A program made the translations under genes and the position numbers. Shown here one piece after another: positions 6 to 39,987 of a DNA stretch of 64,000 bases. Below the pieces are notes generated by a model, which was given only the letters and a program-made list of their open reading frames with translations, did no database searches and had not been told where the DNA came from. Each line of letters begins with the position of its first letter. The first letter of the stretch is position 1. The DNA is from Jezberella montanilacus (GTDB lineage: Bacteria > Pseudomonadota > Gammaproteobacteria > Burkholderiales > Burkholderiaceae_B). The stretch lies in NCBI RefSeq assembly GCF_003003055.1, contig NZ_PVTV01000011.1:310001-374000 (forward strand), in the 5' to 3' direction.

Positions 6-806
6 ATGAGCGCCGGCGGCCGACGCATCCCAGAGGCCGTCATCGAACGCGATTACGTACTGGCTTGGTTCCTGACCGGTCTGGCCGGACATCCGCTGCG
101 CGAGGTGCTGGCATTCAAAGGTGGCACGGCCCTGCGACGTTGCTGGTTTGAGGACTATCGGTTTTCGGAAGACTTGGATTTCACATTGACCCGTCCGATC
201 ACCCTTGCAGATATCCTTGATGGGTTGGGCGAAATCTTTGCGGCGGTTGAGACCGCCTGCGGCTTGCGGATCGCTTTCGACCGCGAAGACCGCCATAGCC
301 ACCAGAACAGCCACACGTTTTATCTTCGCTACCAGGGGCCGCTGCCCGCTGCAAACGACGTGAAGGTTGATATCACGATCACCGAAGTCCTGTGCTTCCC
401 TCTGCAAGATCGCCCGATTCATCGCACTTACCACAGCTTTGACGATTTACCCGAAGGGCCAACCGTGAAGGTCTACGCCATCAAGGAAATCGTGGTTGAA
501 AAGCTGCTGGCCTTGAGCGACCGGGCGCGTAATGAGCCGCGCGACTTGTACGACCTCTGGTATCTGTTCGGCTCTACCGACTTGCGCGTTGCTGAAATGC
601 GCGCCGAACTCGACACCAAGTTGGCGCTGCGGCAGCGCGTCGTTGCAGGCATGGAGCAAGCAATCGCCGCCAAGGAAGATCGTTTGCGGCGACTCTGGAC
701 TGCCCGCCTCGCGCACCAGATGAATCAACTGCCACCGTTCGATGATGTCTTTCGGGAAGTGCTGCGTGCTGTTCGCACCGCCGACTTACCGAAGGCGGGC
801 GGCTGA
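6..806 (+). CDS. AbiEii/MenA-like nucleotidyltransferase toxin
   Basis: Nucleotidyltransferase-fold protein of the AbiEii/AbiGii toxin family (266 aa). The core motif is visible: GGT at residues 39-41 followed by SEDLDF at 54-59 (catalytic D56 and D58), a third acidic site in the VDITIT strand near 122, and the C-terminal K...R...RDLYDLW signature near 158-185. Family members transfer nucleotides, for example to tRNA 3' ends, and act as toxins or phage-abortive factors. The ATG overlaps a TGA in another frame (bases 4-6, TGATGA), as expected if an antitoxin gene ends just upstream, outside the window. The frame stays open to the window edge, so an earlier start cannot be excluded. Toxin function is inferred from family only. 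Confidence 0.8.
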   Translation: MSAGGRRIPEAVIERDYVLAWFLTGLAGHPLREVLAFKGGTALRRCWFEDYRFSEDLDFTLTRPITLADILDGLGEIFAAVETACGLRIAFDREDRHSHQNSHTFYLRYQGPLPAANDVKVDITITEVLCFPLQDRPIHRTYHSFDDLPEGPTVKVYAIKEIVVEKLLALSDRARNEPRDLYDLWYLFGSTDLRVAEMRAELDTKLALRQRVVAGMEQAIAAKEDRLRRLWTARLAHQMNQLPPFDDVFREVLRAVRTADLPKAGG

Positions 807-872
807 TCGGTTAGCTCTTCACACGCAACATCAAAATCTAGAGAAACAACCAAGTTTAAAGAAGGATGAGCT

Positions 873-1730
873 ATGCCTGGTCAAATGGTTCTGCGAATCT
901 GGGATGTCGCCCACGGCGCGTGCGCCATGCTGACCCACCACCATGACGGTCGCGATGGCCGCATCGCGATGATTGATTCGGGAAGCACGGTTGGCTGGAA
1001 TCCCAGCACCTGCATTCGCAACGGTTTGGGGCGCTCAACGCTGGACTACTTGTTCATCACGAATGCTGACCAGGATCACATGGACGACTTGCAAGGGTTG
1101 TGGGACCAGAATATCGCGGTGACGACACTGCTCCGCAACCCCAGCTACACCGGCGAAGATATGAGACGACTCAAGCGGCAGAGCGGGCCGCTCACCAATG
1201 ATGCGCAGCGGTACACGTCTGCCTGCGAGGTCTACAACCAGCCCGTGACCGAACCATTCAACGCCTACATGGGCGGCATCACGGCGACCACCTTTTGGAA
1301 CAACTACCCTGCTTTCCAGAGCACGAACGATCTCAGCCTGGTGATCTTCATTCAGTACGCAGGTGTGAAGATACTATTTCCCGGCGACTTGGAGAAGCCC
1401 GGCTGGAGGGCATTGCTGCAGCGTCCAGATTTTTGCGCCGAGCTGCACAACCTTGACTTCCTCGTGGCATCTCATCACGGGCGCGAGAACGGTTTCTGTC
1501 CTGAACTATTCAACTATTGCCGCCCCGATGCTGTGATCATTTCAGATAAGCCCATTGAACATGAGACTCAACAGACGGTGCCCGACTACCGCGCGGTGAT
1601 AGGGCGCGGGGTACCTGTCAGAACGACCAACAAGAGGAGACACGTGCTCACGACGCGGCGCGACGGCTGGATACAGATCACAGTTTTCGACAATGGTTGG
1701 TACGCGTTCGATACGGAAAAGCGAGGGTAG
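873..1730 (+). CDS. ComEC/Rec2-like metallo-beta-lactamase-fold protein
   Basis: Soluble 285-aa protein with a metallo-beta-lactamase fold of the ComEC/competence type. Visible landmarks are VAHGACAML near residues 12-20, MIDSG at 33-37, the metal motif region ITNADQDHMDDL at 62-73, LFPGDLEK in the middle, SHHGRENGF, and a C-terminal ISDKP strand. In the usual T-H-x-D-x-D-H motif the first His is Asn here (TNADQDH), so only part of the first metal site is kept. No membrane segments are present, unlike true ComEC. The start has AAGGATGAG upstream at good spacing. It follows the nucleotidyltransferase gene by 66 bp and is probably co-transcribed with it as element cargo. The substrate is unknown; nuclease or phosphodiesterase activity is possible. 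Confidence 0.72.
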   Translation: MPGQMVLRIWDVAHGACAMLTHHHDGRDGRIAMIDSGSTVGWNPSTCIRNGLGRSTLDYLFITNADQDHMDDLQGLWDQNIAVTTLLRNPSYTGEDMRRLKRQSGPLTNDAQRYTSACEVYNQPVTEPFNAYMGGITATTFWNNYPAFQSTNDLSLVIFIQYAGVKILFPGDLEKPGWRALLQRPDFCAELHNLDFLVASHHGRENGFCPELFNYCRPDAVIISDKPIEHETQQTVPDYRAVIGRGVPVRTTNKRRHVLTTRRDGWIQITVFDNGWYAFDTEKRG

Positions 1731-1754
1731 GTACCGAGGTCATATTTGCAGTAG

Positions 1755-2660
1755 CGTAATGCGGGAACACCCGCGCAGACCGGGCGCATTGCGCAGCCAG
1801 GCGATGTCGAAGAGGCGGCACGTTCGGGGGTTTTCTTTCGCAGCGGAGCGGTCAAGGCAGCGCCGTCGTCCACTGCGAGTACGGCCATGCCCGATCCAGT
1901 ATCGGGCAACCAGCCATTCAATCCGATGACCCCTGCGGTCGCATCGGCGCAACCGACTGACCCGACGGCGGTGCAAAACCGGCAGGATCAGAAGCAGGCG
2001 TTTGTCGCCAATGGCGGCGACACCGCCACCCGCAATCCGGCCAGCTTGCAACTGCCAGCCTCTCCCTACCAGGTGATGGCGGGCACCATCATCCCGGCAG
2101 CACTGGTAACGGGCATCAATTCCGACCTGCCGGGACAGGTCATCGCCAACGTCACCGAGTCGGTCTACGACACGGCGACAGGTCGCTTCCTGCTGATTCC
2201 GCAGGGCTCACGCCTGATCGGCCGCTATGACAGTCAGGTGTCATTTGGTCAGCGGCGCGTGTTACTGGTGTGGACACGGTTGATCCTGCCCGATACCTCA
2301 TCCATTTCGCTCGACCGCTTGCCCGGCATCGACCCGGCGGGTTATGCCGGACTGGAAGATGGCGTTGATTGGCATTGGGACCGCATCCTCGCCGGTGCTG
2401 CGTTGTCCACGCTGCTCGGAGTCGGTGCCGAACTGGCTGCGCCTGATCGAACCGGCAGCGATAGCAAAATCATCATCGCCACGCGCCAGAGTGGGCAGGA
2501 CACAGTGAACCAGGTCGGTCAGGAGATCACCAAACGCAATGTGAGCATCCAGCCGACGCTTACTATCCGGCCCGGCTTCCCAATGCGGGTTATGGTGAAC
2601 AAGGATCTGATCCTGCGGCCGTATCAGCCGCTGTTCTTCCAGAGGGGATCGTCGCAATGA
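1755..2660 (+). pseudogene. trbI: 5'-truncated trbI, conjugal transfer protein
   Basis: TrbI/VirB10 is the inner-to-outer-membrane scaffold of the mating-pair type IV secretion channel. The C-terminal TrbI domain is intact (PYQVMAGTIIPAAL, RFLLIPQGSRLIGRYDS, RLPGIDPAGYAGLEDGVDWH, then the GFPMRVMVNKDL end). The family-like frame continues upstream of the ATG at 1887, through EEAARSGVFFR, to a stop at 1752-1754. The coding sequence has therefore lost its N-terminal cytoplasmic and membrane-spanning part, roughly 150 residues by comparison with usual TrbI length. The ATG at 1887 has no ribosome binding site. The breakpoint lies just behind the metallo-beta-lactamase-fold gene, so cargo insertion or deletion probably destroyed the gene. 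Confidence in the family is high; loss of function is inferred. Confidence 0.82.
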
Positions 2661-38752: not shown

Positions 38753-38779
38753 TAGCCGTGCGTTAGGTCGGTACTCTGC

Positions 38780-39835
38780 TTATTTTGCTGCCCGCAGCTT
38801 ATCTAACTCTGCATTTTTTTGCTCGATTACAGCGCCCAAATCAGCACGCAGTTTATCTAGCTCAGCGTTTTTCTGCTCGATGATAGCCCCGACGTTCACT
38901 GCAGCCGCTTGCTGTTCAAGCTCGCTAACCGACTGTTGGCTGACGGCGGCACTATGTCGGAGTGTTTCAAGCTCGACTGCATTCTTAGACTCACTCGAAC
39001 GCAAGCGGGTAAGCTCTTCGGCTTGTATTTCTGAATAAGCCAGCGAGTTGTCCAATTTCGATTTGAACACTGCCAGCTCTTCTTTGAGTGCCTGAATCGA
39101 CTGCTGACTCTTTTCGAGAGCGCCGCGTGCTTCTTGACCTGCGTCGACTGCAGCCCTTAAACGATTCAGTTCAATGCTCTGTTGAGACAGCTGGGCTTCG
39201 CTTCCTACAAGTTTCGCGGCTGTGACCGCTGCTTCTTGCTCAGCTTTTCCTCTCGCCTGCTGAGCTGCGTTCACGACTGCGCGCACTCGGTCAATCTCAG
39301 CTTCAAGGTGAACAATACGATCTGTTTGAACTTCAACTTTAAGCCTGGCGGTGGCTGCCTCAATGCGCACGCTCTCAACGACAGCATGTTGCCGCTGGAT
39401 CGTTTCAGCCTGGGCAGCTAACTCAGCCGCTTGCTGCTCACTTTTACCCACAAAAGTGTCTCGCTCACGGGTCACCGCAGCAATTTTTTCGATTAACTGG
39501 TCACGCTCGATTTCAAGCTGCTCACCAGACACCGCCAATTCAGCAGCCTCATTCATCGCCTCGGTCAGGCGCAGCTCTATCTGCGTTCGTACATCCGCCG
39601 TAGCGCGTTCAATCTCGTGGATGATGGCAAACTGTATCTGACGTGGCAATTCGAATACACCTACATTCGGAGCAGGCAAACTTGCCCGCCAGGTAGTCAG
39701 GTGCTTATGAATGGTGTTGGGGCTGCCTGTGCCCAACCGCTCACGAATAGCTCGGATCGTCGGCTGCTGGCCGGTTTTCAGCAAATCTTCGGCCGCAGCG
39801 GAAACTTGCTCAAATGTAATCCCTTCACGTGCCAT
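38780..39835 (-). CDS. KfrA-like coiled-coil DNA-binding protein
   Basis: 351-aa protein with a KfrA N-terminal helix-turn-helix domain (residues 1-55: ITFEQVSAAAEDLL, PTIRAIRERLGTGSPNTIHKHL) and then an almost continuous coiled coil of A, E, Q, R and L to the end. KfrA proteins of plasmids bind operators at their own promoter and can assist plasmid maintenance; chromosomal relatives are little studied. The C-terminus carries two copies of an 18-residue unit (GAIIEQKNAELDKLRADL and a near-identical one). AAGGAATTTTC precedes the ATG. The leader between promoter and gene holds a GATACA array that may be its operator. No partition genes are nearby. Confidence 0.88.
   Translation of the reverse strand: MAREGITFEQVSAAAEDLLKTGQQPTIRAIRERLGTGSPNTIHKHLTTWRASLPAPNVGVFELPRQIQFAIIHEIERATADVRTQIELRLTEAMNEAAELAVSGEQLEIERDQLIEKIAAVTRERDTFVGKSEQQAAELAAQAETIQRQHAVVESVRIEAATARLKVEVQTDRIVHLEAEIDRVRAVVNAAQQARGKAEQEAAVTAAKLVGSEAQLSQQSIELNRLRAAVDAGQEARGALEKSQQSIQALKEELAVFKSKLDNSLAYSEIQAEELTRLRSSESKNAVELETLRHSAAVSQQSVSELEQQAAAVNVGAIIEQKNAELDKLRADLGAVIEQKNAELDKLRAAK
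38783..38890 (-). repeat. 54-bp tandem repeat at the 3' end of the kfrA-like gene
   Basis: Two units of 54 bases, each coding for 18 residues of coiled coil (xIEQKNAELDKLRA core). For example, CGCAG at 38793 recurs at 38847. The copies differ at scattered third-base positions. A length of 18 residues is not a whole number of heptads, so each unit would shift the coiled-coil register. Confidence 0.75.
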
Positions 39836-39863
39836 GAAAATTCCTTAAGCTAATTTTCGAAAC

Positions 39864-39952
39864 GATACAGTTGCTCGATACAGTTGCGCGATACAGATAC
39901 AGATAGATACAGATAGATACAGATACAGATACAGATACAGATACAGATACAG
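39864..39952. repeat. GATACA hexamer array in the kfrA-like leader
   Basis: Eleven GATACA hexamers plus two bare GATA units lie between the gene and its upstream neighbour. Copies at 39864 and 39877 are parts of 13-base units (GATACAGTTGCTC, GATACAGTTGCGC); from 39890 the hexamers run head-to-tail at 39890, 39896, 39906, 39916, 39922, 39928, 39934, 39940 and 39946, with GATA at 39902 and 39912 producing two 10-base steps. On the coding strand this reads TGTATC repeatedly. Known KfrA proteins bind repeated sequences at their own promoter, so this may be an operator; it may also simply be a slippage-prone microsatellite. Confidence 0.85.
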
Positions 39953-39982
39953 TATACACGCTGATATTAACAACTTAACAAG
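39952..39982 (-). promoter_or_regulatory. Candidate promoter of the kfrA-like gene
   Basis: On the minus strand TATACT (39957-39952) makes a good -10 hexamer directly abutting the GATACA array, with TTGTTA 19 bases upstream as a weak -35. If right, the whole array lies in the transcribed leader, downstream of the promoter. Judged by eye only. Confidence 0.35.
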
Positions 39983-39987
39983 AAATT

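Follow-up and report, generated by a model that had tools for sequence, protein, structure and literature searches.

The KfrA protein of the IncU plasmid RA3 represses its own promoter via five TGTATTGTA repeats (PMC7783346). Four of these repeats were sufficient for full repression and two caused weak repression, so that repression varied with repeat number between one and four; the orientation of the repeats was not critical, and dimer contacts were modelled on TAT (PMC7783346). Furthermore, KfrA of R751 and RA3 was described to polymerise into filaments with operator DNA (PMC7821693). KfrA proteins occur on many broad-host-range plasmids, and their role is still termed enigmatic (PMC7783346).

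In the window, i.e. the whole 64-kb stretch of Jezberella montanilacus DNA analyzed in this study, a related arrangement was observed (Table 1). As in the RA3 operator OK, iterated TGTAT-containing repeats are located at the kfrA promoter beside the KfrA_N gene, and one operator locus is present per replicon. However, the RA3 operator is composed of 9-bp units (three in direct and two in inverted orientation) that cover the -35 and -10 boxes on a plasmid, whereas the window features approx. 13 units on the chromosome, which are mostly 6 bp long, all direct and mostly located downstream of a possible -10 box. Based on the motif shared within the clade of the encoded protein, an identical recognition helix and the similarity to the RA3 operator, the array very probably serves kfrA, the chromosomal gene next to it, as an autoregulatory operator in an expanded and homogenised form. 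Control of this kind is known from plasmids, but a repeat of such length and purity is not.

Table 1. Features of the kfrA locus; positions refer to the window.
Feature	Position	Strand	Basis
kfrA-like gene, 351 aa, N-terminal KfrA_N helix-turn-helix, long alpha-helical tail	38780..39835	-	
Likely ribosome-binding site TTAAGGA / AAGGA, shortly 5' of ATG	39842..39848	-	read from sequence
Two 13-bp spaced TGTATC units, gene-proximal end of the putative operator	39864..39889	-	sequence; TRF period 13
Main array, nine TGTATC broken by two TATC (GATA on +), proposed KfrA operator	39890..39951	-	
Possible -10 hexamer TATACT, one-base overlap with the array edge	39951..39956	-	weak by consensus, inferred
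Acquired segment of approx. 1.2 kb with kfrA and its putative operator, bounded by the stop codons of the convergent CoA-transferase and FAA-hydrolase genes	38753..39987	.	congener loci

Between positions 39864 and 39951, 11 GATACA hexamers were counted on the forward strand, corresponding to TGTATC on the reverse strand, which is the sense strand of kfrA; in total, the reverse strand harbors 11 TGTATC and 13 TATC units. The composition given in an earlier note on this DNA, namely two hexamers in 13-base units and nine in a stretch interrupted by two GATA units, is therefore exact. The TATC cores are spaced by 6, 6, 6, 6, 6, 4, 6, 4, 6, 6, 13 and 13 bp, and the two 13-bp units read GATACAGTTGCTC and GATACAGTTGCGC on the forward strand. 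Allowing for one mismatch at most, GATACAGATACA matched eight times compared to 0.13 matches expected from dinucleotide shuffles, and none of 100 shuffles reached eight matches. The perfect hexamer run at 39915-39952 comprises 6.33 copies, and no other perfect tandem repeat with a period of 4-9 reaches three copies within the 64-kb window. The genome scan for further GATACA arrays proposed in the same note was carried out on the whole 3.16-Mb genome and yielded one additional exact GATACAGATACA dimer as well as scattered dimers carrying one mismatch.

Among 95 kfrA upstream regions, the array of the window is the longest and purest, followed by that of RA3 with approx. three copies of 9 bp. 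Slippage is the probable origin of the pure hexamer run, i.e. mixed plasmid-type units with 5-7 bp spacing would have been converted to a near-perfect hexamer array, presumably by tandem duplication. The locus resembles simple-sequence contingency loci underlying phase variation, which likewise contain a pure short tandem repeat in the promoter or leader; it differs from them in that its repeat unit is probably the very sequence to which the product of the downstream gene binds. It is conceivable, albeit rather unlikely, that the operator additionally acts as a mutable rheostat, in which slippage alters the unit number between cells and thereby tunes kfrA expression in the manner of phase or volume variation. 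The 6.33 perfect copies, by far the purest run in the compared upstream regions, and the dependence of RA3 repression on repeat numbers from one to four (PMC7783346) are in line with this assumption. However, about four units saturate the RA3 system, so that going from 13 to 12 units may matter little, which accounts for the low rating; moreover, the interruptions suggest an old, stable portion of the array. The copy number considered here was read from one genome of the species. Slightly more doubtful still is the wider proposal of a self-tuning autorepressor, in which a domesticated plasmid KfrA would act on a slippage-prone hexamer microsatellite, and cells within the population would differ in both filament length and number of KfrA sites.

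The protein encoded next to the array matched the KfrA_N profile PF11740 with E=6e-13 and 49.9 bits, above the curated cut-off of 26.1, confirming an N-terminal KfrA_N DNA-binding domain. A single-sequence structure model of moderate confidence (mean pLDDT 78.9) predicted a three-helix head (residues 8-20, 27-34 and 39-52) and a tail of helices 65-208, 216-312 and 315-350 that is nearly continuous to the end of the protein. As judged from this model, the long alpha-helical (coiled-coil) tail typical of KfrA is present and the protein has KfrA architecture. A search of solved structures with the window protein returned chance coiled-coil matches only. At the C-terminus (38783-38890, reverse strand), a duplicated 18-aa stretch, GA[IV]IEQKNAELDKLRAD, was observed, the DNA copies of which have diverged; therefore, the length of the KfrA tail may also be changeable by duplication.

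The closest relatives found were KfrA proteins of small mobilizable IncP-6/IncP-type plasmids, showing 56-60% identity over residues 1-209 (58% for KfrA of pHS87a). They share the identical stretch RERLGTGSPNTIHKHL with the window protein, and their recognition helix, TGSPNTIHKHL, is identical to that of the window protein. Screening of genome-contig and viral-contig collections yielded no confirmed relatives of the protein, and none were found in phage records. A tree built from 81 KfrA_N domains placed the window protein in a 22-member clade together with plasmid KfrA proteins, where the fork beside the latter is drawn open (support 93/92). The chromosomal KfrA proteins of the bacterial family to which the species belongs form a clade apart from it. 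Members of the family's chromosomal clade possess the same domain and coiled-coil architecture and are likewise encoded on chromosomes, but they are distinguished from the window locus by their own clade, a GGATAAC...GTTATCC-like palindrome and AATACAT/GTATTA boxes.

Upstream of kfrA, the plasmid relatives feature iterated direct GTATC, ATATC, TGTATT and TGTATC units, e.g. TTGCATATCGTATCTGTATTGTGTATCATATCTGTATTGATACG, which span a TTGCAT-17-TATCAT promoter. IncP-6-type plasmids (pHS87a, pKAM376_4, pMRY16-414SMA_2 and others) thus correspond to the window locus in unit types, strand and recognition helix; they differ in having five to six mixed units with 5-7 bp spacing and no pure hexamer expansion. 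In alignments of the window with the plasmids, the repeat core is kept and the flanks do not align. The motif RTAWC was counted in the 110 bp upstream of kfrA. In the 22-member clade, a set that includes close plasmid copies, mean counts were 5.18 on the sense and 1.05 on the antisense strand, compared to 0.68 and 0.69, respectively, for the other 59 KfrA_N genes. For 20 of the 22 members, the kfrA upstream region is among the richest RTAWC stretches of its locus. Since the motif had been picked after part of the data had been viewed, a hold-out of 14 new plasmid loci was analyzed with the motif fixed beforehand; the kfrA promoter ranked in the top 1% of its locus for RTAWC in eight of these, and the hold-out loci lacking the motif mostly resemble other KfrA clades. 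Most clade members in this new set thus conformed to the pattern. As a specificity control, 31 further non-clade KfrA_N genes, drawn from 40 leftover KfrA_N matches nearly all of which belong to other clades, showed 0.42 sense and 0.52 antisense occurrences. Pooling all KfrA clades and both strands, shuffle tests for RTAWC were significant in 17 of 55 cases; this weak result is explained by the different operators of the clades, which were resolved by the tree. Within the clade, the motif is absent from two members (L304 and L315) and weak in a third (L403), and a Halomonas plasmid (L397) carries TGTATTGTA-like repeats in its place. Judging from these upstream regions, direct arrays with a period of approx. 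5-6 bp are characteristic of the clade of the window protein.

These comparisons also bear on the reading that the array is a neutral microsatellite or 5'-leader repeat whose proximity to kfrA is accidental. Slippage can generate hexamer runs, and unrelated genomes devoid of KfrA also contain short TGTATC arrays of a similar kind: among TGTATCx3 stretches found elsewhere (119 genome and 120 viral), KfrA_N was encoded near none of those examined, and the hexamer alone is therefore no marker for KfrA. However, the closest KfrA relatives possess a TGTATC-type unit at the same place despite diverged flanks, and the window contains a single repeat of this kind in 64 kb; accidental proximity is accordingly considered quite improbable. 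The operator reading is favored instead. The claim of a chromosomal kfrA autoregulation site held in so far as a kfrA-type gene is present and the array is its likely operator, with unit and place common to the closest relatives and resembling RA3; autoregulation itself would follow by analogy. Its premise that KfrA proteins bind repeats at their own promoter has a precedent in RA3 (PMC7783346).

With respect to operator architecture, at least two iterated TAT-centred repeats, and at least four for full effectiveness, are expected at a kfrA promoter, and 13 TATC units were found. Regarding coverage of -35 and -10 boxes, the weak TATACT at the array edge was the sole element seen. This hexamer does adjoin the array, as noted earlier, sharing one base with its edge. 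Its best -35 partner is TTGTTA, located 19 bp upstream, and no strong sigma-70 promoter with 16-18 bp spacing was found beside the array, so TATACT is a weak promoter candidate. We infer that neighbouring TGTATC/TATC units, each centred on TAT, are occupied by adjacent KfrA dimers via their N-terminal helix-turn-helix. Binding would be cooperative, possibly accompanied by filament growth via the helical tail, and KfrA would coat the edge of the promoter as well as the transcribed leader, thereby repressing its own transcription. Since the interval from the FAA-hydrolase gene to kfrA yielded no terminator, KfrA perhaps also acts as a road-block to read-through from this upstream gene, which lies on the same strand. 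If TATACT is the -10 box, the array is transcribed, and the leader repeat could alternatively control translation via RNA structure. However, folding of the leader was poorer than that of its shuffled versions (MFE -6.7 vs. a shuffle mean of -16.7, z = +3.6); leader RNA structure was rejected as the function, and an RNA-level element is hardly probable at all.

Nucleation of filaments by the window KfrA is plausible by analogy to R751 and RA3, the KfrA proteins of which form filaments with operator DNA (PMC7821693). A more far-reaching reading holds that the array mainly seeds the assembly of a filament or nucleoprotein complex by KfrA, serving in positioning or in DNA organisation on the chromosome beyond autoregulation. 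The unusual length of the array, its single occurrence in the genome and the long helical tail of the protein point in this direction. On the other hand, the chromosomal kfrA has lost its plasmid context, no KorB-family match was obtained in the genome and TrfA was not found in a search that had no working control. A predominant role of this kind is thus regarded as unlikely.

The locus was compared to other genomes of the genus. KfrA_N was found in none of the 31 congeneric genomes, all of which possess matches to the FAA-hydrolase protein. In 13 congener loci, the convergent CoA-transferase/FAA-hydrolase pair is kept, separated by a gap of 13-102 bp or by approx. 1 kb with a different gene. 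In some congeners (L052, L053 and L054), an HMGL-like gene was observed where the window has kfrA; the gap between both genes seems to accept genes. Since the 31 congeners lack KfrA_N and the flanking gene pair is conserved, comparative sequence data indicate that approx. 1.2 kb carrying kfrA and its putative operator was gained at this gap in the Jezberella montanilacus lineage. The base composition of the segment does not stand out. Based on the relatives identified, kfrA and its operator most likely came from an IncP-6/IncP-type plasmid. The locus would accordingly exemplify the capture of a plasmid stability gene, along with its own control region, by a chromosome. Moreover, a testable rule can be deduced: within this clade, KfrA proteins whose recognition helix reads GSPNTIHKHL or GSMxT are predicted to bind direct RTAWC/TGTATY arrays repeating every 5-6 bp. 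A natural operator of approx. 13 units is furthermore suited for measuring cooperativity and filament growth against site number.

Genes for a nucleotidyltransferase of the AbiEii type (PF08843) and for a conjugation protein resembling TrbI (PF03743) were identified at the left edge of the window (6-2660), which suggests that an integrative or conjugative element ends there. In the chromosomal KfrA clade of the family (L010-L036), a conserved palindrome-like element, GGATAACTTTTAATTATCC, was observed downstream of the AATACAT/GTATTA boxes; it is a different operator type as deduced from sequence, and no description of such a type was found. Furthermore, a Methylomonas plasmid (L402) features a further long array, composed of CATAACGTAA, upstream of kfrA with an exact 10-bp period, corresponding to about one helical turn, and the kfrA upstream arrays of L312 and L306 resemble it.
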